From the NCBI GenBank assembly GCA_029262375.1, contig JAJCZM010000049.1, forward strand, positions 67,992 through 131,991: DNA of 64,000 nucleotides. The letters run 5' to 3'. The notes under the pieces are model-generated. The model had not been told where the DNA came from. It did no database searches and saw only the letters and a program-made list of their open reading frames with translations. Source of the stretch: Deltaproteobacteria bacterium (lineage in GTDB: Bacteria; Desulfobacterota; Binatia; UBA1149; SPBQ01). Shown here in pieces: positions 40,800-58,379 of this stretch (within the stretch, counting starts at the first letter, position 1; the number at the start of each line of letters is the position of its first letter). The translations under genes were made by a program, and so were the position numbers.

Positions 40800-42020
40800 A
40801 TGATTTCGTGTGATGAACGGTTCGCACTACCCGGCGGTGCGACGGCAATCGTGGCGGCACTCCTCGTGGTGCTGCCGGCCGCGATGTCGGGGTGCGACAA
40901 GGATAAGGAATCGGTCGAGAACGACCCGAATCGGCGCAATGGAGCGCCCGTCTATCGGCTTCAGTTGCAATCGCCCGTCTACACGATCGACAAGATTTAC
41001 AAGTCGATGCAGGGTCCGTCCGACATAGAGCGCATGCGGCTCGGCGGCGACTCGGAGGTCGAAGAGCTGGTATGGATGACCGGCTATCGCGCCGAGGTCA
41101 CGGACGCATCGGGCAACGAGCCGCGCTCTGCGGAATTCATGTGTCACAGCGCGATGGATACCCGCGACGACGTGTACCGGGCGAAATTCCCAACGGCGAT
41201 GCGTCTGCGCGGCAACCGACTATTCAGCGTGGATCAAGGAACGCTGGAGAACGTACTGCCGAGCGGCTTCGGCGTGCCACTGATGTCGTCGAGCGACCTT
41301 CTGGTCGCCACGCAAGTACTGAACCACAACGTCGAAGCGGACCCGTTCGAGGTTAGACAACGCGTCACCGTGGAATTCGTGCGCGATGTAGACCTGGCCA
41401 CTCCGCTCAAACCACTGATTCAGCACGGCATCTACGGTCTTGCACTGGTGGACGGTCCGGACGGATACATGGGTGTCGCGCCCGGTAGTGCCGACGAAAA
41501 ACGTCACGGCCCGGGATGTTCGATCGCCGAAGACGTCGGGCACCCCGGCGGTTTGGTTCTCGATAAACACGGTCGACGCTTCTCATCGTTCTGGGTCGTT
41601 CCCCCCGGGCGCCATACGTACCACACGCGCGTGACCGACCACCTGGGTCTTCCGTACGACACCACCGTGCACTACGCGGCGGCACATCTGCATCCGTTCG
41701 CGACGTCGCTCGAGTTGTACGACATCACATCGTCTCGATCGGTGATCAAGCTGACTGCGACCGCAAGCGCCAACGGCACCGGTCTGGCCGAGGTGGAAAG
41801 TTACTCGAGTGCCGACGGGGCTGCGTTGTACGCGGGGCACGAGTACGACCTCATCGCCGAGTACGACAACACGTCACGCGTGGCGCAGGACGCAATGGCA
41901 ACGATGCTTCTGTACGTACTCGTTCGCGACTTAGAGTTCAGCAAGCCTGACGGCGACCCGGCGAAGGAATCGATCTGGGAACAGGTCGACGCGGGGCCGT
42001 TGGCTCAGAAGTTGAACTGA
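40800..42020 (+). CDS. Lipoprotein with PHM-like (copper type II monooxygenase) fold, putative
   Basis: ATG start (GTG at 40791 would add three codons), about 406 residues. The lipoprotein signal is 'AALLVVLPAAMSGC'. Weak but consistent elements of the two-domain peptidylglycine hydroxylating monooxygenase fold are visible. 'AEFMCHSAMDT' sits where the first metal His region lies. 'LLVATQVLNHNVEADPFEVR' resembles the 'LLQVHYNN' strand. 'FWVVPPGRHTYHTRV' and 'VHYAAAHLHPFATSLELYD' resemble the His-x-His copper strand of domain 2. No standard Met ligand could be placed. Similar Cu-fold proteins occur as lipoproteins in several bacteria. A structural, non-enzymatic role remains possible. It overlaps the convergent ExeA-like gene by 16 bases. 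Confidence 0.45.
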   Translation: MISCDERFALPGGATAIVAALLVVLPAAMSGCDKDKESVENDPNRRNGAPVYRLQLQSPVYTIDKIYKSMQGPSDIERMRLGGDSEVEELVWMTGYRAEVTDASGNEPRSAEFMCHSAMDTRDDVYRAKFPTAMRLRGNRLFSVDQGTLENVLPSGFGVPLMSSSDLLVATQVLNHNVEADPFEVRQRVTVEFVRDVDLATPLKPLIQHGIYGLALVDGPDGYMGVAPGSADEKRHGPGCSIAEDVGHPGGLVLDKHGRRFSSFWVVPPGRHTYHTRVTDHLGLPYDTTVHYAAAHLHPFATSLELYDITSSRSVIKLTATASANGTGLAEVESYSSADGAALYAGHEYDLIAEYDNTSRVAQDAMATMLLYVLVRDLEFSKPDGDPAKESIWEQVDAGPLAQKLN

Positions 42021-42541
42021 GAAGCGACGCGACTCGAGAGCGCGGTGAGTCTCGGCTGCGTAAGGAGATGCGTGAGAAAGTGACCGCCGAGCAAGACAAT
42101 GCGCACAGTGATCATGCTGGTGGCGAAGGCCTCACAGGCCATGCGAAGACTCTCGAGCGATTGCACGCTGGCGAAGTCGGCATCTTCCACAACGACGACC
42201 AACGAGACGCCGCGTGTTCTGGCATCGGCCATCTCTGAGAAGAGCGCTTCTACCTGCTGCTTCCCGCCGACAGCGCTGCGCGTCGGCAAGCTGCCCGCCA
42301 TCAATTCGGCCATGACGTCGATGCGGCCGAGCCGGCCACTGAACGCGATCACGCGCACGCCCGACGCGCGATCGATTGCCGCATCGAGGGTTTGTCGGAT
42401 CGCGTACTGATCGTCACCGACGAGCACCGCGTGCCCCTCGCCGGAATCTAGGTATCGCGTGATCTTCGCCTCGATGTCGCGCGGAGTGTATCGCGAGCGA
42501 ACCGACCGCGATCCTTTGGACTGTCTAATCGTCGAAGCCAT
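42005..42541 (-). CDS. Degenerate ExeA/MshM-like AAA ATPase domain protein
   Basis: The start is placed at 'MASTIRQSKGSRSVRSRY' (178 residues), as the first 76 codons of the ORF-track frame are low-complexity and Arg/Cys-rich. The C-terminal two thirds align by eye with ExeA-family ATPases: 'GVSLVVVVEDADFASVQSLE' (Walker B position and downstream helix) and 'VRIVLLGGHFLTHLLTQPRL' then 'TALSSRVASQF' (family: 'VLVGQPELR..L...L..RI..RF'). The Walker A position reads 'AVLVGDDQYAIRQTL', with no Gly-Lys-Thr, so ATP binding is probably lost. No downstream secretion or type II genes are present. It may be a regulatory or scaffold version. Confidence 0.6.
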   Translation of the reverse strand: MASTIRQSKGSRSVRSRYTPRDIEAKITRYLDSGEGHAVLVGDDQYAIRQTLDAAIDRASGVRVIAFSGRLGRIDVMAELMAGSLPTRSAVGGKQQVEALFSEMADARTRGVSLVVVVEDADFASVQSLESLRMACEAFATSMITVRIVLLGGHFLTHLLTQPRLTALSSRVASQFNF

Positions 42542-42629
42542 TGCGTAACCGTCTTGACCCGCGACAATTTCCCGCAAGCCCGAAGCAGCGACAATCGTTC
42601 GAGCACTCAGACTGTGCGTAACTCCTCGA

Positions 42630-42647
42630 CCTGCCCGACCTGCCCGA
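42630..42647. repeat. Two tandem copies of CCTGCCCGA
   Basis: Two exact nonamers CCTGCCCGA, with decayed copies on both sides, lie just after the stop of the 42654-44948 TPR gene and before the ExeA-like start. Confidence 0.7.
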
Positions 42648-42653
42648 CTCGCC

Positions 42654-44948
42654 TTACTTCGGATTCGACAGGCCGGCGAGCAGGTGCGACACGACGCCGT
42701 CGCGCGCGAACACGCGCGAGTGTTGAGCAATGTCGCGCCAGACGCGCAGTTGCGCCGTGCCGAGCGCACGAAATCGCCCGTTCACATCACGGAACGTGTA
42801 GATGGAAGATGCACGATTTCCGCCCAGCATATCGAGGCAAGCAACCAAGACCGTCCGACGATCTGCGCTGCCTAGCGAACCGCGCAATTCGACGTCGGCG
42901 CGACGGCGCCCCTCCCACAATAAAACCGGCAGCGTACGCTCGATTGCGTCAAAGGCCGACAGTCCGCCGCGCTCGTCGCCGCCGTCGAGTTCGGCCAGAC
43001 CGCGCACTACCCACGCACCCATCCGCGCCGGATTCTCGCGCGTGGCGTGCTCGAGATCCGTGAGCGCGAGATCGAGTTCGCCGCGGCGCCAATGCAGCTC
43101 GCCGCGATAGGCGTACGTCGCTTCCTCTGGAAGGTATGTGTATTCGGTCTTGCCGTTTCCCCACACGGCCAGCGCTTCGTCGTAGTCCCCTTGCAACATT
43201 CTCGCGGCACCGCCGCCGACGTAGCCCCAGCGCGTCTTCGTCTTGTCCCAAATCTCGTCGAAACCGGCCTGCGCTTTCGCGTAGTCGCCCATCCACAGAT
43301 GGATCTCCGCGGCGTACGTGCGCGCGAACGGCGAGAACTCATCTTGCGCGGCAAGAGCCGCAAGGTCGGCTAGTACGTCGGCAACCGAACGATGCAGGAT
43401 GCGCGCTTGCGCGTTGACGGCCTGCGACCGCGGCGCTTCGAGATCGTAGAGTGGATCCAATCGGTCGTCGACGACGCGCGTGGGCTGACGCGAGCGGTTT
43501 CCCGCGAACCCGCTCATCGTACGGTCAACCAATTCCGACAGACGACGGTCGTCGTCCACGATCGGCCGGACGGCGTCGCGTCCGTGCATCTGGACGAGGA
43601 GCGAAAGATGACTCGGCGACTTCGACCAAGGCTCTTCGTTATCGTCGGCACGGTAGACGAGGTCGGCCTGCTTACGCTGCAACTGCCAAACCGGATGATC
43701 CGCAAAGCGACCGCCGGGCTTGAGATCGTCGAACATGCCTTCGGTATCGCCCGCGTCTCGACGCGCGACCGCACGCCAGAGCAACGCCTCGCTGTTCTTC
43801 GGCTCGGCTTCGATGACGCGATCGAGGTCTTCGAGAGCGCCTTCGATCTGCCCGATCAGCGTTCGCGCCGCGCCGCGCGCGCGAATCGCGCGCAGATCGC
43901 CGGGTCGTTTGGCAAGTACCAGCTCACAAAGCGGCAGGCTGGCCTCGGCATTCCCCTTGTACAGCTCCAACTCGGCCAAGCGCAGGCTCAGATCGAGCGG
44001 GCCGCCGCGGTCGTGAATCGCGCGCGCACGTTGCAGAGCGCCATCGGGATCCCCGGCGCCGAAAACCGACTCCACCGCGTGCGTCAGATCTTCGCCGTTC
44101 GGTTCGGCGGCGAGCACCGCCGTACAGGCGTCTCGCGCGATGTCGGGTCGGCGTGCCAGCGCGGCCAGGCGTCCTACCTCGCGCCAATCCGCCGCAGCCC
44201 CTGTTCGCAAGGCGACGAGGTGACGTAGCTCCAGCGCCGCATCGAGCGCCTCGACGACCGTAAGCATGCGTGTGAGCGCGCGCTGCTGTTCAAGGCCCAG
44301 CGGCGCATCGGCCAGCGCGAGAACCCGCGGGCGAACATCGACAGCCAACCCGCAAAAGCCATCGAGCACCGCCGCGCACGCAGCGTAACTCGCGGCGCAG
44401 CATGCGACGGACGCAGAATCGCAGCCGGACTGACCGGCAAGTGCGTGATCGTAGGCGTCGATGGCACCGCCGATATCGCCGACATCCAACCGTAGTACCG
44501 CCGCAGCGGCGGCACCCGCCGGTGACCACTCGACGAGAGTACGAGCCGCCTCGGCGAGAATCTCAGCGTCGGGTTGCTCGGGCGCAAACGCTGGTTGTTC
44601 TAGCAGCGTAAGCGCCGAGTCGAGTTGCGTCGCTTGTAACCCCAGTGCGCCTTCGGCGGCTCGCCGGCGCCATGCGACGAGGTCGACGGCGAGCTGCGCG
44701 TACGCCCGCACGCGCGGATCGATACGATCTCGCACCGCCAAAAGCAGAGCGCGCTCCGTCTTACCGATGGTGCTCGGGCGCACGACTTTCGGCGAAACAG
44801 ACGCATCGGCACCAACACGAATTTCGATTGTCGGACCGGCGCCGCGGTCGAAGAACAGGCACAACGCGTCGTCGACTGCAGACAGCCGAGAGGGCCGTAA
44901 CCCCTTCGGCCAATCGCCGAACCAATCCGGTAGTGGCAGCGCGATCAT
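42654..44948 (-). CDS. Large TPR protein, paralogue B
   Basis: The start is placed at 'MIALPLPDWFGDWPKGLRPS' (764 residues), because the ATG overlaps the upstream TPR stop as ATGA. There is no signal peptide. An N-terminal domain of about 80 residues ('GPTIEIRVGADASVS') precedes tetratricopeptide repeats such as 'ELELYKGNAEASLPLCELVL', 'GAARTLIGQIEGALEDLDRV' and 'AARMLQGDYDEALAVWGN'. Near the end 'FARTYAAEIHLWMGDYAKAQ' and 'YAYRGELHWRRGELDLAL' mirror repeats in paralogue A. The C-terminus carries 'GGNRASSIYTFRDVNGRFRA', shared with A. It is probably a scaffold for, or binding partner of, the radical SAM enzymes nearby (inference). Confidence 0.75.
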   Translation of the reverse strand: MIALPLPDWFGDWPKGLRPSRLSAVDDALCLFFDRGAGPTIEIRVGADASVSPKVVRPSTIGKTERALLLAVRDRIDPRVRAYAQLAVDLVAWRRRAAEGALGLQATQLDSALTLLEQPAFAPEQPDAEILAEAARTLVEWSPAGAAAAAVLRLDVGDIGGAIDAYDHALAGQSGCDSASVACCAASYAACAAVLDGFCGLAVDVRPRVLALADAPLGLEQQRALTRMLTVVEALDAALELRHLVALRTGAAADWREVGRLAALARRPDIARDACTAVLAAEPNGEDLTHAVESVFGAGDPDGALQRARAIHDRGGPLDLSLRLAELELYKGNAEASLPLCELVLAKRPGDLRAIRARGAARTLIGQIEGALEDLDRVIEAEPKNSEALLWRAVARRDAGDTEGMFDDLKPGGRFADHPVWQLQRKQADLVYRADDNEEPWSKSPSHLSLLVQMHGRDAVRPIVDDDRRLSELVDRTMSGFAGNRSRQPTRVVDDRLDPLYDLEAPRSQAVNAQARILHRSVADVLADLAALAAQDEFSPFARTYAAEIHLWMGDYAKAQAGFDEIWDKTKTRWGYVGGGAARMLQGDYDEALAVWGNGKTEYTYLPEEATYAYRGELHWRRGELDLALTDLEHATRENPARMGAWVVRGLAELDGGDERGGLSAFDAIERTLPVLLWEGRRRADVELRGSLGSADRRTVLVACLDMLGGNRASSIYTFRDVNGRFRALGTAQLRVWRDIAQHSRVFARDGVVSHLLAGLSNPK

Positions 44949-47188
44949 GGCGTGAGTCGATTGACGATCTCGCGCTCGACAAGCGGTACACGGTTGGCCG
45001 CTTGGCGCCGCCAGGATTCCACGTCTTCGACGATCCGGAAGCGATCGTCTGCGTCGAAGTACGTGATCGTGTGTGAGGATCTGTTCCCGCGCATCAACCG
45101 GAGGCCCTCTTCGAGAACCGCTGACATTTCTTCCTCGGGCGACGGCCACGTGTGGCCGAGCGCGCGAGAGATGTCCCAGAATAGACGCGGGTGCTTCTCT
45201 ACCAACGAACGGTAGCTGAGCAATGCATCGTCGCGGCGACCAAGCGCAATGTGGCAGAGCGCCGCACTCATGCGGGCGGCGACGCGGCCGGGCTTTGCCG
45301 ACAGTGCCACTTCGAACTCGCGCAGTGACTGTTCGTGCTCACCTCGCAGGCGGTGCAGCTCACCGAGATAGACATGCGTCGTCGCACCCGGGACCGGCTC
45401 GAACACGTACGCAAGCCTTTTGAATTCGTCGAGCGCTGCATCGAAATCGCCACGATGGACGTGCACTGCCGCACGACCTACGAATCCCCAGCGCGCTTGC
45501 TTGGCCTTGTCGTTGCCGAAAAAGCACTTCTCGGCCTCGTCGAACTGTCCGAGCCACAGGCGAAGTTCGCCCCAATAGCACCACGGATGCGGCGACTCAG
45601 GAAACTGCTCGTTGAGAGCCTTGAAGCCGGCATGCACGTTCTCGATCGGCTGCGTTCGGATCGTCTTGAGGAGTTCGGCAGATAGATCCCGACTCACGAG
45701 ATCGGCGTCCTGCGGAGCCGGAAGCATCATTTGGAGATCAGCAGGACGGTCGGATTTCCCCGCCGGAATCCGCGTGAGCGCTTCTTTGCGATTGCCTTTG
45801 AGCGAGGCCAGCATCGCATCGACCTCGGCAAGGCCGGGGTTCGCGATCGTCGTACCGTCGGCCTCGGCCTCGTTGCGCAGGATCGCCACGACGTTCGGAT
45901 AGATATCTCGATCCACGAGCGCCGTTAGCAGCGTGTGCAGCGGCGTCTGTGCGCGAGCACGCGCATAGTTGAGGTAGTGGGTCGCCGTCTCCATGTCGCC
46001 TTTGCGCATGTATAGCTCAGCCATCCACGCCATCGTCTCGGGATCGTCGAGGGCTTCGATCCCCTTGAAGATCGTCAGTGCTTCTTCGTTCTCACCGTCG
46101 AGCACACAGCGCGCGCCCTCGGCTCGCAAAACGCCGATGGCCTCCGGCTGGAGCTCACGCGCTTTCGCGATCCAGCCGCGCGCGTCATCGGTACGCCCGC
46201 ACCACAAGGCGATCTCGGCCAGCGTAAGAAGCACTTCGAAGTGCGGCGGATCTTTAGCCGCGCGTTTCTCGAGAATCTCAGCGCCCTCGGCGAATGCGCC
46301 GTAGCGCAGCAGATCGCGCACCACGCGGATCATCAGGTGATCGTCGTTCGGCTGCGCGGCGCTGGCCCAACGCAGGCATCGCACGGCGAGTTCGCTTCCG
46401 TTGAGCTCATGCGCCAGTTCCGCCATCGGAACGTAATAGTGCGCGCGCTCAGAAAGCTTCGTGTACACGAGCCCCAACCGCAGACGTTCAAACGCCGCCT
46501 CGGTGAACCGTAGTTCCTTCAGTGCAAGCCCGCAGAAGGCGTTCAGCCCTCCCCACGACGCGTTGCCCTCCGGCGACGAGGCGGCGCATTCCTGCAGTCG
46601 GTCGATGTCGCCCGAGCAGGCGTAGACGACCGGCGCCAACCACGCAGGCAGATTGGCAACGTCGGTGTCGGCGTGCGCGAGGACTTCGTCCCACGCCCCC
46701 CCGATCAAGCGTAGGTACAACCGGATTCCGAGCGCGTCGTCGCCCTCGCCGACATCGATGACGGGCATGGATCCCGCTCGATATTCTTCCGCGCTACGTA
46801 GCTGCCGGATCAGGTCGAACGCCTGCGCCAGATCGAGATCGTCGCGGCTCGGCTTGTAGCTGCTCGGCGCAGAGTCGCCGCCGACGATCTGCTGCACCCA
46901 GAGCATGCGTTGATGGAACGCCTGCATGTCGCTACGTGCCTCGGCCAGAGCCGATGCGTCGAGCGACAACGATTCGTTACCGTGACTCGTGACCAAGCGC
47001 GCGGCAACCGGGTCGGCCGCGGTGTCCACTTCGTAGACGCGTTGCTCGCCGCGCGCTGTCGCAATCCATAGACGCAGCGTCTCGGGATCGGCGTGCGCTT
47101 CCAACCACTTCGCATCTAGGGCGCCGAACAGGCGAAGCCATGCCGGCCGCGCCTGCACGAGGATGAACTGTGCTCTTCGTGGACTCAC
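44945..47188 (-). CDS. Large TPR protein, paralogue A
   Basis: A GTG start 9 bases after the dioxygenase-transglutaminase stop gives 747 residues with no signal peptide. TPR units include 'GLALKELRFTEAAFERLRLG', 'LTLAEIALWCGRTDDARGWI' and 'MAELYMRKGDMETATHYLNY'. The C-terminal third has 'PHPWCYWGELRLWLGQFDEA', 'RWGFVGRAAVHVHRGDFDAA' and 'YLGELHRLRGEHEQSLREFE', matching paralogue B position by position. The end carries 'RGNRSSHTITYFDADDRFRI', the same C-terminal motif as B. The pair is encoded head to tail with ATGA overlap, suggesting equimolar synthesis and perhaps a heterodimer. TPR proteins bind other proteins; here the natural candidates are the dioxygenase-transglutaminase and radical SAM proteins. 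Confidence 0.75.
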   Translation of the reverse strand: MSPRRAQFILVQARPAWLRLFGALDAKWLEAHADPETLRLWIATARGEQRVYEVDTAADPVAARLVTSHGNESLSLDASALAEARSDMQAFHQRMLWVQQIVGGDSAPSSYKPSRDDLDLAQAFDLIRQLRSAEEYRAGSMPVIDVGEGDDALGIRLYLRLIGGAWDEVLAHADTDVANLPAWLAPVVYACSGDIDRLQECAASSPEGNASWGGLNAFCGLALKELRFTEAAFERLRLGLVYTKLSERAHYYVPMAELAHELNGSELAVRCLRWASAAQPNDDHLMIRVVRDLLRYGAFAEGAEILEKRAAKDPPHFEVLLTLAEIALWCGRTDDARGWIAKARELQPEAIGVLRAEGARCVLDGENEEALTIFKGIEALDDPETMAWMAELYMRKGDMETATHYLNYARARAQTPLHTLLTALVDRDIYPNVVAILRNEAEADGTTIANPGLAEVDAMLASLKGNRKEALTRIPAGKSDRPADLQMMLPAPQDADLVSRDLSAELLKTIRTQPIENVHAGFKALNEQFPESPHPWCYWGELRLWLGQFDEAEKCFFGNDKAKQARWGFVGRAAVHVHRGDFDAALDEFKRLAYVFEPVPGATTHVYLGELHRLRGEHEQSLREFEVALSAKPGRVAARMSAALCHIALGRRDDALLSYRSLVEKHPRLFWDISRALGHTWPSPEEEMSAVLEEGLRLMRGNRSSHTITYFDADDRFRIVEDVESWRRQAANRVPLVEREIVNRLTP

Positions 47189-47197
47189 CGTTCGGGT

Positions 47198-49003
47198 TCA
47201 GAGCCGGGCCAAGATCGTGCCGCTGGCCGTTCTCTCCTCGAATACTCTACAGACGTCGGCAGTCACGCCGCCGACGGCGTGATCGCGCAAGACGTTGGAA
47301 TAGGCCAGCTGTGTGGCAATGCGGTCGCCCATCAGGTGTTTGAGGCGCGCGTCCAGGTAGTCGGTCCATACCGGCGACAATGCAATCGGCTGCGTCGCGC
47401 CGTCCAATTGGGCGGCGATGTCAGCGACGTTTTCTTCACCAGGCTGTGGGAATGCCACATCGAGAACACTGCCGCCTTGGTAGGCCTCTCGAGCGACACA
47501 ACCTATCTTGGGTTGATCGCCCTGGAACTCCAGATCCGCATACTCTGGAATGCCGGCCAACGGCGTCCCGCCGAGGTCGGCGACATAGTACAGGGTGTTG
47601 GGCGACCACGCGTCGGCAAACGCCCAACCTTGCTCCGTCGTCACGCGCACCAACAAATGGTCGCCACGGCCGGTAGCGGGGTCGATCGTGTTGAAGATCT
47701 CCACCTGCTCGAACATCTGCGAGAGAAGCAGCGCGAGCGTATAGTTCTGCCCCTCGCAATTGACGAAACCGCGAAACAGTCGCGACCAGTTCGTTTGCGG
47801 AAAATCGGCTTCGCCGACCTGCTCGGCCAAATGCGCGTGGGACGCAAGCTGATTGACCAGCACTTCCCCCACGATCGAGATGCATCTTCGCAATCGCGAA
47901 ACGTCGTCCGCGAGCCTCTCTGCGATTTGGTCCGCGAGTCGCGAGACCCACGACATCGACAGCGCGACGTCCAGATCGAGTACTCGCGCACGCACGGTCG
48001 CATCGACCCGCTCGTTCCATTGCTCACGTTTCGGTAAGAAGTAGTCCGGGTGATTCGCCAACAGGACACGCGCGCACTCGGCGAAACTGCGACGACGCGA
48101 GCGAATCATCGCTTCGGGATTGACCAACCTCGAGATCACCGCGGTTTCCACCGGCGACGGCGACGGATTGTCGGGGCGATAGTCGAGCGGATCGGCCGTT
48201 CGTATCATCGGATTCTCTAGATAGCGCACGCGGTAGCTATAGTTGGAGTGCGGTGCGTGTAGCGAGAACCCGTGCGTAATCAGCACGTCGCCCGCCTTAC
48301 CGGTGAACTCCGCGATGTCGCTACACTGTCGCGCAATCGACTTGCCCCACTCGTCGCCTCGACTATCGATCCCTTGTTCGGTTTCTTCGAGTTGTCCGAC
48401 GATGTGGGTCAACGACTGGCCGGTATAGAGAGTGCCGGCGCCTCCGGATTCGACATCGGTCCATAGGATGAGAAGCGCGAGCGCATCGCGACGATTCTCG
48501 AATGTCATGTACTGACCGGGCTCGTCGATGTGCCACTGCTGCGAGCCGGCGTAGACGGTATCCACCTCTAACGGCGGACAGGGAGGCGGCCGGAAGTCAC
48601 CGTTGAGTATCCACTGCTCACCCATCGTACGGCGCGAGATGTTTTCGGGATCACCGACCAAGCTCACGATCGCCCCCCAGAGCTTCGGTGAGAACTCTTC
48701 GATGTCGAACGAACGACCGGTGTCGATGTACACGCGTGCAATCGACCAGGTCTCGGGTTCGCGCAGATCGAGCTCTCCTACATCAGCCCGATGCTGTGCA
48801 TCTACATCACGATACGAAGGCGGCGGATCTTTCTCGATCGTAGTCTGACGCACCAGCTGCTTGGCTAGCTCGGGCGAAAAGCAGTCGCGCACAATCAGAT
48901 ACCCGTTCTCGATGAACTCGCGCTTGCGCTCCTCGGACAGGGCGAAGGACGATTCGGACGAGAGCGACGCGTCGATGCTAGGAATGGTCGGATGGGCAGC
49001 CAC
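47198..49003 (-). CDS. PhyH-type 2OG dioxygenase fused to transglutaminase-like domain
   Basis: A GTG start gives 601 residues with no signal peptide. Residues about 20-270 are a phytanoyl-CoA dioxygenase-like Fe(II)/2-oxoglutarate fold: 'EFIENGYLIVRDCFSPELAK', His-x-Asp in 'SQQWHIDEPGQYM' (158/160), and the distal His and Arg in 'DVLITHGFSLHAPHSNYSYR'. Residues about 390-480 look like a transglutaminase/Cys-protease core: 'FVNCEGQNYTLALLLSQMF' (Cys416), 'GRGDHLLVRVT' (His449) and 'GWAFADAWSPNTLYYV' (Asp464), in the right order and spacing for a Cys-His-Asp triad. One part would hydroxylate, the other cross-link or cleave amides. It heads a minus-strand operon with the TPR pair and is divergent from the dual radical SAM gene. 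Confidence 0.8.
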   Translation of the reverse strand: MAAHPTIPSIDASLSSESSFALSEERKREFIENGYLIVRDCFSPELAKQLVRQTTIEKDPPPSYRDVDAQHRADVGELDLREPETWSIARVYIDTGRSFDIEEFSPKLWGAIVSLVGDPENISRRTMGEQWILNGDFRPPPCPPLEVDTVYAGSQQWHIDEPGQYMTFENRRDALALLILWTDVESGGAGTLYTGQSLTHIVGQLEETEQGIDSRGDEWGKSIARQCSDIAEFTGKAGDVLITHGFSLHAPHSNYSYRVRYLENPMIRTADPLDYRPDNPSPSPVETAVISRLVNPEAMIRSRRRSFAECARVLLANHPDYFLPKREQWNERVDATVRARVLDLDVALSMSWVSRLADQIAERLADDVSRLRRCISIVGEVLVNQLASHAHLAEQVGEADFPQTNWSRLFRGFVNCEGQNYTLALLLSQMFEQVEIFNTIDPATGRGDHLLVRVTTEQGWAFADAWSPNTLYYVADLGGTPLAGIPEYADLEFQGDQPKIGCVAREAYQGGSVLDVAFPQPGEENVADIAAQLDGATQPIALSPVWTDYLDARLKHLMGDRIATQLAYSNVLRDHAVGGVTADVCRVFEERTASGTILARL

Positions 49004-49137
49004 GGAAACGATACCGAGCCCCGAGCTTACAGCGATGTGCGTGACCAGGCCATACGCCGGCCCATGACCCCCTCGCTAGAGGCACGTTTGGGTGTATCTG
49101 CTTGCCTCACAGAGACCCCGGTGAGCACAATGTCGGG

Positions 49138-51543
49138 GTGGGCGCGCCCGTACTCCTCATTCAGCCGCCGTTGTCGCTCAGCAGGGACTTCATCGACTAC
49201 CCGTATCACTGCGATCTCGGGGTGGTTCAAGCCGCTTCGGTGCTTCGCGAAGCCGCGATCGAAGCGGTCGTGGTCGATAGTTTCGCGCTGCCGACATCGA
49301 GCCTGACGCCGATACCGGGTGGCGATCGCGTTCTCATGGGCGCCCCCATCGGCGATACCCTCAAGCACGCCCAGACGCGACGGCTGGCCGGACGAACCCC
49401 CTCGGCGATCGTCGTTTCCTTTACACCGTTCCACCGCCCCCCCGCTCGCGACACCGTTCTCGGCGAATTCCTCGAAGCGCTACGTGCTCGATACGAGCAG
49501 GTGCCGGTGATTCTGGCAGACCTGTATCAAAGCGGTCAGCACTACGTCGAAGCCAACGGTGCCGACATCCTGGCTTCGTACCCCGAGGCCGATATCTTCC
49601 TGAAATACGAGGCCGAGGCGGCGCTGCCGCGGCTCATCGAACGCTTGGCGGGCAAACGCCCCGAGCGAGCCGAAACGGTCCTCGGCGACGAACCGCCGGA
49701 TCTCGACGCGCTGCCGCTGCCGGCCTGGGATTTGGTTGATCTCGACAAGCGCGATCAGTTTCTCGACCGCGTCATCCAGAATCTAGGGCGCGGTCCGTGG
49801 GCCTTCCCGGCCGACGGGCGCACGTTGCCGATGCTCACCAGTCGTGGCTGTCCTTTCCGCTGCGCGCATTGCTCGAGCAACCCAGGGCGCGAGAGCCTGG
49901 AGGCTCCGAAAACGCAGCGTCGCTACAGCGCAGAATATTTGGACCGCCACATCGCCGAGCTCACCGACACGCATGGCGCGACGCGCATCAATTTTCTCGA
50001 CGAGATGGTCAACGTCACGCGCGGTCATCTAGACGGAGTTCTCAGCGCCGTCGTGCGCCACGATCTCAAGCTCGACTTCCCCAACGGCATGCGTGCCGAC
50101 TATCTGGAACAGCAACACATCGATGCCATGGCCGGACGGGTCAACACGCTGTCGGTATCGGCTGAGAGCGGCGTTCAGAACGTGGTCGACGACATCGTCG
50201 GTAAGCAACTGGAACTCAGCTCGATCGAGAACGCGGCTTCGATGGCATCGAAGGCCGGCATCTCGACCTTGGTGCACTTCATCATCGGCAATCCCGGTGA
50301 AACGAAGCGCGACATCAACGGCACACTCGAGTTCGCCCTGCGCCTGCACGACGAGCACGGCGTCTGGCCGAGCATCCAGTACGCGACACCGCTCCCGGGC
50401 ACGGAACTGGCCGCACGCGTCGAGGCCGCCGGGCAAACGCCCGATGTCGACGACTACGGCCCGCTCTTCCAACAGGTACCGGTTACTTCCGGCACGGATT
50501 TCACACCGCAAGATCTGAGTTGGTTCAAGTGGACGTTCGACCAGCGACTGCAGGCCGGACAGCAGCCGCGCAAGATCATCATGAACGTGACGTATGCCTG
50601 CAATAACCGCTGCACGTTCTGCGCAGTCGGGACTCGTACGCAGCTGCACGGTTCGCTGGAACGACAGAAAGAGATCATCGACCACTTCTACGAGCAGGGC
50701 GTGCGTTTGTGCGATTTCGACGGCGGCGAGCCGACGCTTTACCCCGACCTGGTTCCGCTGGTGCAATACACCGCGTCACTCGGCTACGAGGCGATCAACG
50801 TCACGACCAACGGCCGCATGTGCGTCTACGACAAGTACGCGCAGGAACTCACGAACTCGGGCGCCACCAGCCTTCTCTTTTCGGTTCACGGCTCCGACGA
50901 CCGCATGCACGGCGTGAACGTGGGAGTGCGAGAAGCATTCGAGCAGACGATGGACGGCATCAAGAACTGCGTGCGGTTCGCGCCCGACACCCTCGAGCTC
51001 GGCATGAACATCACCATCACGAAGTCGAACTTTCGGCACTTGGAAGAGTGCGTGCAGTTGGCTTGGGATCTGGGACTGCGTTGGTTCAACATCCAGTTCC
51101 TCACACCGTTCGGCCGCGCGACCGACTCTGTCAATCCCGACACGGCCGAAGCGGCGGCGATTGCAGTCAAAGTGATCGATCGCTGGGAAGATCGGATGAA
51201 GTTCCAGGTCATCAACCTGCCGTTCTGCTTCATGCCGGGCAAAGAACGCTACCTGATGGGCGATCTGATGAAACTCGAACGACACATGATCTTCGTCAAC
51301 AACGAAGACGTGAACCTATTCGAGTATCTGAAGGAACAACGCGTCTACAAAGAAGTCTGCCAAGGCTGCGCTCACAAGATCTTCTGCGGCGGCTTCTACG
51401 AACTCGACGATGTCCCCGAACCGCCCTGGGTGTTCGAACCTGCCGAGGTCTATGCGCCGGTCGATCTGGACCGCCTAGCGGCCAAGGGTGCGAAAGAAAC
51501 GGCACCCGACAGGCGGCAGAAAGCCGCTATGGGACAGCGGTAA
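49138..51543 (+). CDS. Dual radical SAM protein (B12-binding-like domain + two rSAM domains)
   Basis: The ORF track uses TTG at 49102. GTG at 49138 is preferred because it opens the domain as 'MGAPVLLIQPPLSLSRDF'; this gives about 801 residues. Residue numbers below follow the ORF track. A B12-binding-like fold occupies about 15-180 ('LGVVQAASVLREAAIEAVVV'), without the DxHxxG base-off motif. Radical SAM domain 1 has 'LTSRGCPFRCAHCSSN' (Cys250/254/257) and B12-rSAM-like downstream motifs ('FIIGNPGETKRDINGTLEFA'). Radical SAM domain 2 has 'NVTYACNNRCTFCAVG' (Cys500/504/507), 'CDFDGGEPTLYPDLVP' and an auxiliary-cluster tail ('LPFCFMPGKERY', 'CQGCAHKIFCGGF'). Each half could bind its own [4Fe-4S]-SAM centre. 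It overlaps the next radical SAM gene convergently by 17 bases. Confidence 0.88.
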   Translation: MGAPVLLIQPPLSLSRDFIDYPYHCDLGVVQAASVLREAAIEAVVVDSFALPTSSLTPIPGGDRVLMGAPIGDTLKHAQTRRLAGRTPSAIVVSFTPFHRPPARDTVLGEFLEALRARYEQVPVILADLYQSGQHYVEANGADILASYPEADIFLKYEAEAALPRLIERLAGKRPERAETVLGDEPPDLDALPLPAWDLVDLDKRDQFLDRVIQNLGRGPWAFPADGRTLPMLTSRGCPFRCAHCSSNPGRESLEAPKTQRRYSAEYLDRHIAELTDTHGATRINFLDEMVNVTRGHLDGVLSAVVRHDLKLDFPNGMRADYLEQQHIDAMAGRVNTLSVSAESGVQNVVDDIVGKQLELSSIENAASMASKAGISTLVHFIIGNPGETKRDINGTLEFALRLHDEHGVWPSIQYATPLPGTELAARVEAAGQTPDVDDYGPLFQQVPVTSGTDFTPQDLSWFKWTFDQRLQAGQQPRKIIMNVTYACNNRCTFCAVGTRTQLHGSLERQKEIIDHFYEQGVRLCDFDGGEPTLYPDLVPLVQYTASLGYEAINVTTNGRMCVYDKYAQELTNSGATSLLFSVHGSDDRMHGVNVGVREAFEQTMDGIKNCVRFAPDTLELGMNITITKSNFRHLEECVQLAWDLGLRWFNIQFLTPFGRATDSVNPDTAEAAAIAVKVIDRWEDRMKFQVINLPFCFMPGKERYLMGDLMKLERHMIFVNNEDVNLFEYLKEQRVYKEVCQGCAHKIFCGGFYELDDVPEPPWVFEPAEVYAPVDLDRLAAKGAKETAPDRRQKAAMGQR

Positions 51544-52423
51544 GCTCCGCGTCGCCCCAACGCTCGAGGTAGTCGTCGCGAAGCCCCGGGCACTCGTCGA
51601 ACCACTTACAGCCCTCACAACGATCCGTTTTCGTCTGGCCGGAAAGCCGCGAACTGCTCAGCTGAAACACCGCATCGGGCGTGACGACATGCACGTCCTC
51701 TTGGAATCCGGGGTGATAGACGTGGTCTTCGTAGCCGGGGATGAAGCAACGCGGAACGTGCAGCGACAGCATCTCGAGGTCGTGCTCGCGCGCATAATCC
51801 ATACAGCGCGTCATAGAGCCCACCATCTCGGTGATCTTCGGTAGGCTCTCCAGATTGGGCTTGTTCTGATCGGTCAGTGAGACCAGCCAAAGCGTGAACG
51901 ACGTCACCCCGCGGCCGTGCAGGTCCTTTACGCCGTCGAGCAATCCTTCGTGCGTGGCCCGCATGACGATCATGTCGGCGGTCGGACGCGTACCCGCAGC
52001 CACCAGGTTGGTGATGCCTTCGAGCATGAGTTCGTGGGATTCGTCCCCGCCCTGCGTGATCGCCGAATACGGTGCGCTGTCGGATCCGGTGTGCCCGTGT
52101 ACCGAGACGTGAAACCGCGTCGCACCGGCATCGAGCATGCGATCGAGGTAATCGCGGTCGGAAAACATGAGACCGTTCGACTGGACCTTGATGTCGTCAA
52201 AGCCACGGCCGCTCGCGAAACGAACGAGGGGGATCAGTTCTCGACGAATCGTCGGCTCACCGCCCGTGATGGAAAGACTGCGCACCCCCCGACGCGCCGC
52301 CTCCTCGATGTGCCCGGCGACCTCTTTCGCGTCGAGGCCGCGGCGTCGCATTTCGTCGGTGATCGTGCAGTAGGTGCACTTCAGATTGCAGTCGTAGTCG
52401 ATGACGACGTCGAGAAGCGCCAT
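51527..52423 (-). CDS. Radical SAM protein with twitch/SPASM-like auxiliary Cys
   Basis: The start is placed at 'MALLDVVIDYDCNLKCTYC', with AAGGGCGG 6 bases upstream (298 residues). The SAM-cluster motif CxxxCxxC lies at residues 12-19 ('DCNLKCTYCTIT'). The glycine-rich SAM-binding strand is 'SLSITGGEPTIRRELIPLV'; 'DIKVQSNGLMFSDRDYLD' and 'RFHVSVHGHT' complete the barrel. The tail has 'HVPRCFIPGYEDHVYHPG' and 'DRCEGCKWFDECPGLRDDYL', a four-Cys arrangement able to bind a second cluster. This is an uncharacterised family known from archaea and bacteria ('C..CKYF..C.G...YL...G'). It lies between the two plus-strand radical SAM genes with 17 bases of convergent overlap and a 170-base divergent gap. 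A modifying role on peptides is inferred. Confidence 0.85.
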   Translation of the reverse strand: MALLDVVIDYDCNLKCTYCTITDEMRRRGLDAKEVAGHIEEAARRGVRSLSITGGEPTIRRELIPLVRFASGRGFDDIKVQSNGLMFSDRDYLDRMLDAGATRFHVSVHGHTGSDSAPYSAITQGGDESHELMLEGITNLVAAGTRPTADMIVMRATHEGLLDGVKDLHGRGVTSFTLWLVSLTDQNKPNLESLPKITEMVGSMTRCMDYAREHDLEMLSLHVPRCFIPGYEDHVYHPGFQEDVHVVTPDAVFQLSSSRLSGQTKTDRCEGCKWFDECPGLRDDYLERWGDAELTAVP

Positions 52424-52593
52424 TTTGTCCGCCCTTCCGGGTCCGCAGTCCCCTGCCGGGGTGCGGGTCCAAGACGAGCCACCTTGCGCTACCGGTGCTC
52501 CTTTGTCTACCATGCCTCTAAGGCGGGGGTCGCCGAGAGGCCCCTCCTAATCGCCCGTAGGCCCACCCGATCTACGGCGCAGCAGGCAACATC

Positions 52594-54285
52594 GTGGCAA
52601 CCGGCATCGAGACCATCATCACTGAGCAGGACCGTCGCGAGGCGGCCATCGTCTCGACCTCGCAGGCCGGCCACAAGTTCGAGATTCAGCTGGGGCACCT
52701 CTGCAACAACCGCTGCGTGTTCTGTTCGAGCGGTCAACTCACAGCGATGAAGATCGCCAAGGCGATTCCGCTCGAGCCCATCGTCGCTGCGATCGAAGAG
52801 GCACGCGCTAACGGCGCGACACATCTCACATTCCTCGGCGGCGAGCCGACGATTCACAAACGCTTTCTAGAGGCGCTCGAACGAACCGTAGAACTGGGTT
52901 TCGAGCACATCGTCATTTTCACCAACGGTGTCATGTTCCCCCACCCCGGCTTCATCGAGTCGGTGTGCGCGCTCGGCAACTTCGAATGGCGTATCTCGAT
53001 TCAGGGCGCCACCGACGAAGCCCACGTGGCGGCAACCGGTCGTGCAGACGCCTTCCAGCGGATCATCCACGGGCTGGGAGAATTGCAGAAACGTAACCAG
53101 CTCGTCACGACGAACATGTGTGTCAACGAGCGCAGCTATCGCTCGCTGCCGGCCTACCCTGAGCTACTCGAACACTACGGCGTCAAGCAACTACACGTCG
53201 ACATCGTGCGACCGGCGAGCACGGGCGAACGCGACGAAGCCTACCTTCGCGACATCATGCCCCGTTACTCGGACATGGCTCCCTACTACGCCGACATGCT
53301 CAAAGGCTTCGATGAGTGGGATCCCGACTTCGACGTGAACGTCGGCAACATGCCGTACTGCATCTTGCCCGCATGGGGCCACCGCGTGCACCACGGCGGC
53401 GAGGAAACGGTGACCAAGTCTTCCGACGGTGAAGGCCTCGAAGACGCGATGAACAAGTACGAGTGGCATTCGAGCCTGCGCACGCACCTACCGGGGTGTA
53501 GCGACTGCGCGTTTCGCTCGCGATGCACCGGTATCTTCTCGGAGTACCTCGAAATGTACGGTGGCGACGAATTCCAACCGGTATCGCGCGAGGACCTCAG
53601 GCGCATCGACCCCGAGCGACGCAACTTCGTCTTGCAGGCCGAGCCCGATCTCGCTTCGCTACGCGCGGCGCTCGCTGCGGGAGAAGTCCCGGCTCCGTGG
53701 CAGTTCCGCAACGAGAACAGCGAAGACCGGCGCCGCGCCGTCGAACTACTCTTCACCGCCGACAAGGCGACGCTCACGGTTACGTTCCTACCGCCGGGGC
53801 AAGCCGACGCGGCGATTGCACGAACCGAGGCCTACGATCTCGCAGCCACGGCTGGGGTAAAGGCAAAGGCCGCCGACATCGAGACGCTTCTGGGCTGGAT
53901 CGCCGAGCGACTGTCCGAATCCTCAAACGCGATCACTCTGAGCGAGACCGCGGCAGAAGAGACCATGTGCGACGCCCTGCTCGAGCGAGGCCGAAAGCGC
54001 GTCGTAGGGATCTCTCGCAAACTGCTACGCGGACTCAACATTCCGGGCTGGCGTGTCGCGTCACTCGACTGGACGGACGCGAATACCGGGCGGCTTCGTA
54101 CAGCCGGGCCCAGCGGCAAACACATCGATCTCGTGTTTGCGCTCGGAACACAAGACGGCCGCTCGCAGGTTGATCTCGATTTCCAGCCGTCCGACGACAC
54201 GGACGAGCACAGCGCGAAAGCGGTAATCGACTGCTTCGTCACACTGATCGGCGGCGGCGAGCCTCCGGCCGCACCTCAGCAATAA
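52594..54285 (+). CDS. Radical SAM protein with auxiliary Cys and C-terminal extension
   Basis: A GTG start gives 563 residues. The catalytic cluster is 'QLGHLCNNRCVFCSSGQL' (CxxxCxxC near residue 37). Barrel landmarks are 'HLTFLGGEPTIHKRFLEALE', 'IVIFTNGVMFPHPGF' and 'EWRISIQGATDEAHVAAT'. The auxiliary region has 'GNMPYCILPAWGHRVHHG' and 'PGCSDCAFRSRCTGIFSEYL', matching the other two radical SAM proteins of the locus. Residues about 345-560 form an unrecognised extension ('ELLFTADKATLTVTFLPP', 'VVGISRKLLRGLNIPGWRVA', 'HIDLVFALGTQDGRSQVDLD') that may bind substrate. It is divergent from the 51527 gene. The family is clear and the reaction unknown. Confidence 0.85.
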   Translation: MATGIETIITEQDRREAAIVSTSQAGHKFEIQLGHLCNNRCVFCSSGQLTAMKIAKAIPLEPIVAAIEEARANGATHLTFLGGEPTIHKRFLEALERTVELGFEHIVIFTNGVMFPHPGFIESVCALGNFEWRISIQGATDEAHVAATGRADAFQRIIHGLGELQKRNQLVTTNMCVNERSYRSLPAYPELLEHYGVKQLHVDIVRPASTGERDEAYLRDIMPRYSDMAPYYADMLKGFDEWDPDFDVNVGNMPYCILPAWGHRVHHGGEETVTKSSDGEGLEDAMNKYEWHSSLRTHLPGCSDCAFRSRCTGIFSEYLEMYGGDEFQPVSREDLRRIDPERRNFVLQAEPDLASLRAALAAGEVPAPWQFRNENSEDRRRAVELLFTADKATLTVTFLPPGQADAAIARTEAYDLAATAGVKAKAADIETLLGWIAERLSESSNAITLSETAAEETMCDALLERGRKRVVGISRKLLRGLNIPGWRVASLDWTDANTGRLRTAGPSGKHIDLVFALGTQDGRSQVDLDFQPSDDTDEHSAKAVIDCFVTLIGGGEPPAAPQQ

Positions 54286-56564: not shown

Positions 56565-58379
56565 TCAGCCGTACACGGCGCGCGCGCGCCGCCTTCGTAC
56601 TGCGAACGCGAGCACCAACAGCGATAACAGAGCGGCCGACACGAGCAGCGCCGTCGCACCGAAGCGCTGGCGAAGGCCTTTCTGGAACACTTCCCTACGT
56701 TGATCATAACCGTCGGGGATCGGTGCGACTCCGTTCGTGCGAACGTATTCGTCGTAGTCCACGAGCATCTGAGCAAACCGTTCGGGCATCTCACGGCGTA
56801 GATCGCGCGCTTCGCCGACGTCGTTCGCGATGTCGTACAAGTGCCATTCATCGTCGCCGATAGGACCTCGGTCACGCACGATCTTGTAATCGCCCTTGAA
56901 CAGCGCAGCGTTGCCGGCAAGCTCGTAGCCAATCGCGTGATCGTCGCCATGCACACGATCGGCTCGGCCCCGCAACAGATCGACGAGGCTCGTGCCGACC
57001 ATCGGTTCGATCGTACTGCCCTGATAGCTCTTGCCCGGCTGCTCGACACCGGCGAGTTCGAGAATCGTCGGTGCGAGGTCAGTGACGTAGGCGAACGCGT
57101 CGGAAGTCTCGCCCGCGCTGACAACCGGTGGCCCGGCAATCACGAGCGGCACGCGCATACCGCCGTCGTGGGCGAAGAACTTGTAGTAGGCCAACGGTGA
57201 CGTGGCCGCACTCGCGAAACTGGGACCGATCGCAACGAAACTACCTCGCTCACCGAGCGTCTCGTAGTCGGCGCTGTAGTCCATCCACCGATAGAAGAGA
57301 TTCTTCAACAGTTCGCCGCCTGGTATTGCGGATGGATCGCTACCCTCCGCGCCGTTGTCCGACGTGAACACGAAGATCGTATTGTCGTACTCGCCGGCTT
57401 CTTTGAGATAGGCGATGAGTCGGCCGATGTGATGATCCATGGCCTCGACCATGCCTGCGTACACCGCCATCGATTTCGACATGAAGCGCTGCTCTTCCGC
57501 GGACAGATCCGACCATGCCTTTGTGCCGCGAACCGGCGCCAGCTGCGTGTCGGGTGAAACCACTCCCTGCCGGACCGCACCCGCGAGTCGCATGCGTCGC
57601 AGCTCGGTCCAACCCGCGTCGTACACGCCGAGATATTTCTGCGTGAACTCTTTCGGCGCCTGCACCGGAATGTGGACCGCCTGAAACGGGATGTAGGAGA
57701 AGAACGGCTTGCTATCGCCGCGCCCCGACTCGATGAACTCGATCGTCTTGTCGACGAAGAATTTCGACGAGTAGAAATCCTCGGGCAGGTCGGTCTCGCG
57801 ACCGTCGGCGAACCAGTTCGCCTGCGAATAGATTGGAAGATACGGCTTCTTTTCCCAGTTGTCGGCGCCGGTATCGGCCATCGCGACTGTTCTCTCGAAA
57901 CCGCGACGACTCGGTCTCTGCTCGGGACGCTCGTGACCGAGATGCCACTTACCGGCCATGTACGTGTGATAGCCGGCGTCCTTGAGCACGGTCGCGATCG
58001 TCACGACATTGCTCGCCAAACTGCCGCGGTAGTTCTCGAGCACCAGTTGAGACTCGGGAATCGCCTCCACGATGTTCGGCACACCGTTGCGATGGCTATC
58101 GACACCGGTCAACAACATCGCGCGCGTCGGCGCGCAACTAGCGGCGGTGTGATAGTTCGTGAAGCGCAGACCTTGCCGGGCCAACTCCGAAATGCTCGGT
58201 GTCGCAATCTCACTACCGTACGGCGCGGTATCGCTGAAGCCCAAATCGTCGGCGAGTATGAGTACGATGTTCGGACGTTTCTCGGACGCGCAGGCCCAGC
58301 GCGGCGCCGCAACACCCGCCAGTACGACAAAAAGCGAAATTGCCGTAGCAACGTTGACGCCTGATCGATTCATACGCAA
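56565..58379 (-). CDS. Type I (formylglycine) sulfatase with C-terminal membrane anchor
   Basis: 604 residues; ATG at 58379 or 58373. An N-terminal signal ('AISLFVVLAGVAAPRWACAS') leads into an alkaline-phosphatase-like sulfatase: metal-site 'RPNIVLILADDLGFSDTAPY' and the formylglycine signature 'AASCAPTRAMLLTG' (Cys82, CxPxR). Then come 'TYMAGKWHLGHERPEQRPSR', 'IFVFTSDNGAEGSDPSA' (second metal site) and 'KGDYKIVRDRGPIGDDEWHLY'. The Cys must be converted to formylglycine for activity. The end has a hydrophobic helix plus an Arg cluster ('ALLVSAALLSLLVLAFAVRR'), so the enzyme is probably held in the inner membrane with its catalytic part outside. The substrate is unknown. It is divergent from the SGNH gene. 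Confidence 0.9.
   Translation of the reverse strand: MRMNRSGVNVATAISLFVVLAGVAAPRWACASEKRPNIVLILADDLGFSDTAPYGSEIATPSISELARQGLRFTNYHTAASCAPTRAMLLTGVDSHRNGVPNIVEAIPESQLVLENYRGSLASNVVTIATVLKDAGYHTYMAGKWHLGHERPEQRPSRRGFERTVAMADTGADNWEKKPYLPIYSQANWFADGRETDLPEDFYSSKFFVDKTIEFIESGRGDSKPFFSYIPFQAVHIPVQAPKEFTQKYLGVYDAGWTELRRMRLAGAVRQGVVSPDTQLAPVRGTKAWSDLSAEEQRFMSKSMAVYAGMVEAMDHHIGRLIAYLKEAGEYDNTIFVFTSDNGAEGSDPSAIPGGELLKNLFYRWMDYSADYETLGERGSFVAIGPSFASAATSPLAYYKFFAHDGGMRVPLVIAGPPVVSAGETSDAFAYVTDLAPTILELAGVEQPGKSYQGSTIEPMVGTSLVDLLRGRADRVHGDDHAIGYELAGNAALFKGDYKIVRDRGPIGDDEWHLYDIANDVGEARDLRREMPERFAQMLVDYDEYVRTNGVAPIPDGYDQRREVFQKGLRQRFGATALLVSAALLSLLVLAFAVRRRRARAVYG

Follow-up and report, generated by a model that had tools for sequence, protein, structure and literature searches.

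A predicted PhyH-type oxygenase fused to an orphan domain: a candidate tailoring enzyme of an HxsA4 peptide-maturation network

The window analyzed here, a stretch of 64,000 nucleotides from the genome of a Deltaproteobacteria bacterium, contains a gene for a protein that joins an N-terminal PhyH-type oxygenase domain to a C-terminal orphan domain. We propose tentatively, at somewhat less than an even chance, that this fusion is a tailoring enzyme with two domains that belongs to an HxsA4 (His-Xaa-Ser repeat) network for peptide maturation; its most likely role is that of an oxygenase that tailors peptides in an HxsA4-type system. PhyH and Hxs proteins are established types. What is new by the literature searched is the fusion, the orphan domain and the surrounding TPR network, as no report of any of the three was found there.

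The fusion gene, its oxygenase domain and its operon

The fusion gene occupies positions 47198-49003 on the minus strand and lies on a contig of 200 kb (G000:C49, where G000 is the window's own genome). It has a GTG start and encodes 601 amino acids, and its coordinates are those given in the earlier note. Codon-position GC is even over the full length of the gene and resembles the composition of its neighbors; this uniformity indicates a single coding frame, and therefore one gene with no obvious assembly join.

Residues 1-290 (48134..49003, minus strand) are a predicted PhyH-type Fe(II)/2OG oxygenase domain. Plasmid-borne PhyH proteins of the ordinary phytanoyl-CoA dioxygenase family match residues 28-289 by tblastn, with a best E value of 5e-6. 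A WHIDEP motif begins at residue 157 and contains H158 and D160, which together with H249 are the metal ligands, while R258 is the residue for 2OG; all four are conserved in an alignment with relatives from the same class (L029 and L030). The PhyH-like metal and 2OG site previously placed at residues 158/160 and 244-260 is therefore borne out by the Pfam match, the plasmid relatives, and the distal ligand H249 with R258. Residues 153-260 share with the PhyH family (PF05721) the HxD...H iron ligands, the distal Arg and the GDV...LH context. However, the protein passes the Pfam threshold only marginally (E 1.8e-4; 22.3 bits against a cut-off of 22), and it carries an unrelated domain of 310 residues.

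A tightly packed operon begins with the fusion gene. The second gene, TPR1 (44945..47188, minus strand), may start 9 nt past the fusion stop codon, and overlaps the third, TPR2 (42654..44948, minus strand), by an ATGA at 44945-44948. Both products match Pfam TPR and belong to one family, and TPR1 carries a C-terminal GNRSS motif. Downstream of TPR2 on the same strand is a small AAA_22-like gene (window positions 42008-42691; Pfam E 5e-4, below the cut-off), which may be a fourth operon member. On the opposite strand, a gene for a dual radical SAM protein (49102..51543, plus strand) starts 98 bp from the fusion gene and diverges from it. Its product matches Pfam Radical_SAM in two stretches, with the Cys motifs CPFRCAHC at residue 250 and CNNRCTFC at residue 500. 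This agrees with the earlier description of the fusion gene as head-to-head with a dual radical SAM gene and in one operon with a TPR pair.

Two further radical SAM proteins are encoded beyond the dual radical SAM gene, and both carry C-terminal Cys clusters. The first, rSAM2 (51527..52513, minus strand), was assigned by Pfam, and in HxsA4 clusters its relatives are neighbors of the dual radical SAM gene; the second, rSAM3 (52594..54285, plus strand), has HxsC4 as its best NCBIfam match, far below the cut-off, and has strong orthologs at L039 and L066. A sulfatase-like gene lies close to the radical SAM genes in the window (positions 56565-58379), and another is found beside the rSAM2 relative in genome G104 (L034:13539-14990). 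Rfam gave no match between 42 and 54.4 kb of the window, no sigma-70-like promoter was found in the divergent gap, and no precursor peptide is encoded inside the operon.

Association with HxsA4 precursors and a recurring gene module

The genome that holds the fusion encodes three HxsA4 His-Xaa-Ser repeat precursors above the curated cut-off (L050:15480-15755, L051:866-1141 and G000:C49:138751-139005), two of which differ little and are separated by about 4 kb. One precursor is on the same contig as the fusion gene, 22 kb away, and the stretch from 134 to 148 kb of that contig holds HxsB, more radical SAM genes and an aKG-HExxH peptide hydroxylase (L054:241-1545). HxsB (L031:4134-5699) is over its cut-off and near a precursor, while HxsC-like proteins fall below theirs. 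The HxsA4 genes are flanked by genes for very large secreted proteins whose N-terminal Cys-rich repeats resemble one another (L031:8438-10876, L054:2800-8156 and L050:10614-14738), and which are possible partners or products of the HxsA4 island.

Compared with the Hxs system as named in NCBIfam (HxsA4 NF038313, HxsB TIGR03978, HxsC TIGR03977, HxsD TIGR03976), the genome shares the three HxsA4 copies and HxsB, and the dual radical SAM gene co-occurs with HxsA4. In contrast, the PhyH fusion, the TPR proteins and the dual radical SAM protein are absent from the named system, and the window genes are separated from the precursors by 12-20 kb. The aKG-HExxH peptide beta-hydroxylase (TIGR04267) resembles the fusion in being an alpha-ketoglutarate oxygenase, and it is encoded in the HxsA4 island of the same genome, but it belongs to another oxygenase family than PhyH and is not fused to a thiol-enzyme-like domain. 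Related RiPP HEXXH enzymes set a precedent, being alpha-ketoglutarate oxygenases that not only hydroxylate but also cleave RiPP peptides (PMC12636437).

The association of the neighboring genes with HxsA4 extends across the class, and this context is a firmer result than the proposed fold of the C-terminal domain. Relatives of the dual radical SAM protein, at about 40% identity, were found in 11 other genomes of 145, in clusters that contain radical SAM proteins, HxsD, HxsB, the aKG-HExxH peptide hydroxylase and HxsA4. HxsA4 and the dual radical SAM gene each occur in 12 of the 145 genomes, and 11 have both; the TPR family occurs in seven, every one of which also has HxsA4 and the dual radical SAM gene. 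Counted by genus, the overlap with HxsA4 gave p values of 6e-9 for the dual radical SAM gene and 4e-6 for the TPR family, both of them optimistic because the genomes are related, so that the values overstate independence. Among 395 genomes sampled across the phylum, G000 alone had either the TPR family or HxsA4 above the cut-off, in a sample that omitted the other positive members of the class. The fusion itself had no relatives in 148 genomes of the class and was seen in no other genome, and its own link to HxsA4 therefore comes from one genome. The dual radical SAM relatives have no PhyH neighbor, and the PhyH relative in G104 adjoins a TPR gene outside the HxsA4 cluster and is without the C-terminal domain.

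The TPR relatives, which have a common C-terminal GNRSS-type motif, are found beside radical SAM proteins at L065, L066, L067, L068 and L069, and beside 2OG oxygenases of several kinds: PhyH (L029), two Cupin_8/JmjC proteins (L065), an AlkB-like protein (L066), and at L067 an Asp/Asn hydroxylase fused to a radical SAM domain. One TPR relative (L064) has neither a radical SAM protein nor a 2OG oxygenase nearby. From these neighborhoods, the PhyH fusion can be regarded as one version of a theme that combines TPR, radical SAM and 2OG-oxygenase proteins. Loci in HxsA4 genomes that pair GNRSS TPR genes with 2OG oxygenases of four Pfam families and radical SAM genes are at L065:1150-2711, L066:4730-5365, L067:9371-11839 and L029:9467-10945. 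Both the co-occurrence with HxsA4 and these recurring modules add weight to the earlier suggestion that the fusion and its neighbors may have a substrate in common.

The PhyH domain could instead be an ordinary small-molecule or lipid hydroxylase, with its position next to the radical SAM and TPR genes incidental. The generic character of the plasmid phytanoyl-CoA dioxygenase relatives would fit this reading, as would the setting of the G104 PhyH relative, beside thiolase, acyl-CoA dehydrogenase and CoA-transferase-like genes, and the occurrence of the fusion in a single genome. However, the fusion gene is in a tight operon with a TPR family that is confined to HxsA4 genomes, and elsewhere this family adjoins 2OG oxygenases of the peptide-hydroxylase type as well as radical SAM genes. 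We consider an ordinary hydroxylase rather unlikely, and favor an oxygenase that acts on a peptide.

The C-terminal orphan domain

A Pfam search with residues 291-601 (47198..48133, minus strand) gave no family even at E values up to 10, and the whole protein of 601 residues matched no NCBIfam family. No relatives of the domain were found in the 148 genomes of the class, in the 395 genomes of the phylum, in viral contigs (three scans), or in phages and plasmids, and none of the domain or the fusion in a contig collection of 84,980 species that was scanned twice. The patterns for two of the viral-contig scans and one scan of the contig collection had been widened with invented variant rows, which do not count as evidence. 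Because scans with a single sequence catch close relatives only, distant relatives of the domain may exist. Among the weak matches in the phylum scan, L008 proved to be an unrelated protein.

The domain had been read in the earlier note as a transglutaminase- or papain-like core built on Cys416, His449 and Asp464. The residue placements are correct, with NCEGQN running from residue 415, GDHLLV from 447 and FADAW from 462. The spacing is C-x32-H-x14-D, with the Asp in a GW-x3-D context (C-x32-H-x9-GW-x3-D). In 29 transglutaminase cores of the class the spacing is C-x33..46-H-x13..15-D, so that the Cys-to-His distance of the query is one residue below the range. The pattern C.{15,60}H.{8,10}GW.{3}D turns up in 0.075% of shuffled versions of the domain and in 22 of the 29 known cores; among 428 background proteins, it matched solely copies of the fusion gene and two genuine Transglut_core proteins. 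Because the pattern was designed after the query had been seen, its rarity is flattered by these figures. Two genuine Transglut_core proteins are encoded upstream of the window on the same contig (L053:7415-9310 and L053:11994-15365), and are unrelated to the orphan domain by profile.

AlphaFold2 was run on the single sequence with no alignment, and known transglutaminase sequences were kept out as circular. The two resulting models have low confidence (pLDDT 41.3 and 37.3; pTM 0.24 and 0.34). Both order the domain as helix, strand, strand with the His, and strand with the Asp, as in the transglutaminase core. The predicted helix starts right after Cys416, the second strand has His449, and the third ends at or holds Asp464. 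A transglutaminase profile built from the class scored the domain at -0.4 bits with filters off, a noise-level value. Alignments by hhalign against class transglutaminases and arylamine N-acetyltransferases (NATs) were also noise, no better than shuffles, and comparison with PDB sequences gave no support for a transglutaminase-like domain. Foldseek returned nothing significant with the models, and its lists were left unused because both models have low confidence. The transglutaminase-like reading thus stands on motif spacing and on the order of elements in two weak models, but not on any profile, PDB sequence or fold search. We regard such a fold as plausible, with the chances about evenly balanced.

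Likeness to the transglutaminase core (PF01841) and to the lasso B2 leader peptidase (C96) consists of a Cys before a helix, followed by H-x9-GW-x3-D, with spacing near that of short transglutaminase cores of the class. The domain differs from both in having no significant profile or fold match, VNC in place of GNC, and no HxW after the His. In further contrast to lasso B2 (C96), there is no RRE or lasso cyclase near the fusion gene.

A non-catalytic binding or scaffold domain, in which the Cys, His and Asp coincide by chance, would be consistent with the empty Pfam search, the noise-level transglutaminase profile, the hhalign scores that did not exceed those of shuffles, and the Foldseek result. 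We give this reading only slightly less than an even chance, since the triad and its GW-x3-D context match class transglutaminase cores, are rare in other proteins, and coincide in both models with the element order of the core. Another conceivable identity is the NAT branch of the papain-like/transglutaminase superfamily, in which case the domain would carry out acyl or amide transfer rather than proteolysis. The sequences C-E-G-Q-N and H-L-L-V-x-V do resemble NAT motifs, for example RGGYCFEQN in L070, and the Cys-to-His and His-to-Asp spacings are compatible. However, there is no match to PF00797, hhalign against class NATs stays at noise, and although CEGQN is present, the RGG that precedes the Cys in the RGGxCxExN motif is missing, which makes a NAT quite improbable.

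Proposed function and its implications

If the fusion is a tailoring enzyme of the HxsA4 network, certain activities can be postulated from its family and context. The PhyH domain would hydroxylate a peptide using Fe(II), O2 and 2-oxoglutarate. If the C-terminal domain is transglutaminase-like, its Cys-His-Asp thiol would serve a second reaction on that peptide: removal of the leader, in the manner of lasso B2 (C96) proteases, or transfer of an acyl or amide group. Peptide maturation by a transglutaminase-like leader peptidase has a known example in the lasso B2 protease (PMC10885120). TPR1 and TPR2 may hold the substrate or partner proteins, and the divergent dual radical SAM enzyme may modify the same peptide as the fusion. 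The presumed substrate is HxsA4 or another peptide of the island, and both this assignment and the order of the steps are conjectural. In its fullest form, the proposal describes a bifunctional oxygenase and thiol enzyme, a single polypeptide that first hydroxylates a peptide of the His-Xaa-Ser type and afterwards subjects it to cleavage or acyl transfer, within an undescribed network of TPR proteins, radical SAM enzymes and 2OG oxygenases for HxsA4 precursors; we consider this unlikely as a whole.

No paper on the function of His-Xaa-Ser system products was found in the literature searched, and these products are apparently uncharacterized. The divergent operon offers a defined set of genes for co-expression with an HxsA4 precursor. 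The occurrence of GNRSS TPR genes with 2OG oxygenases of several families suggests that peptide hydroxylases form a modular set.
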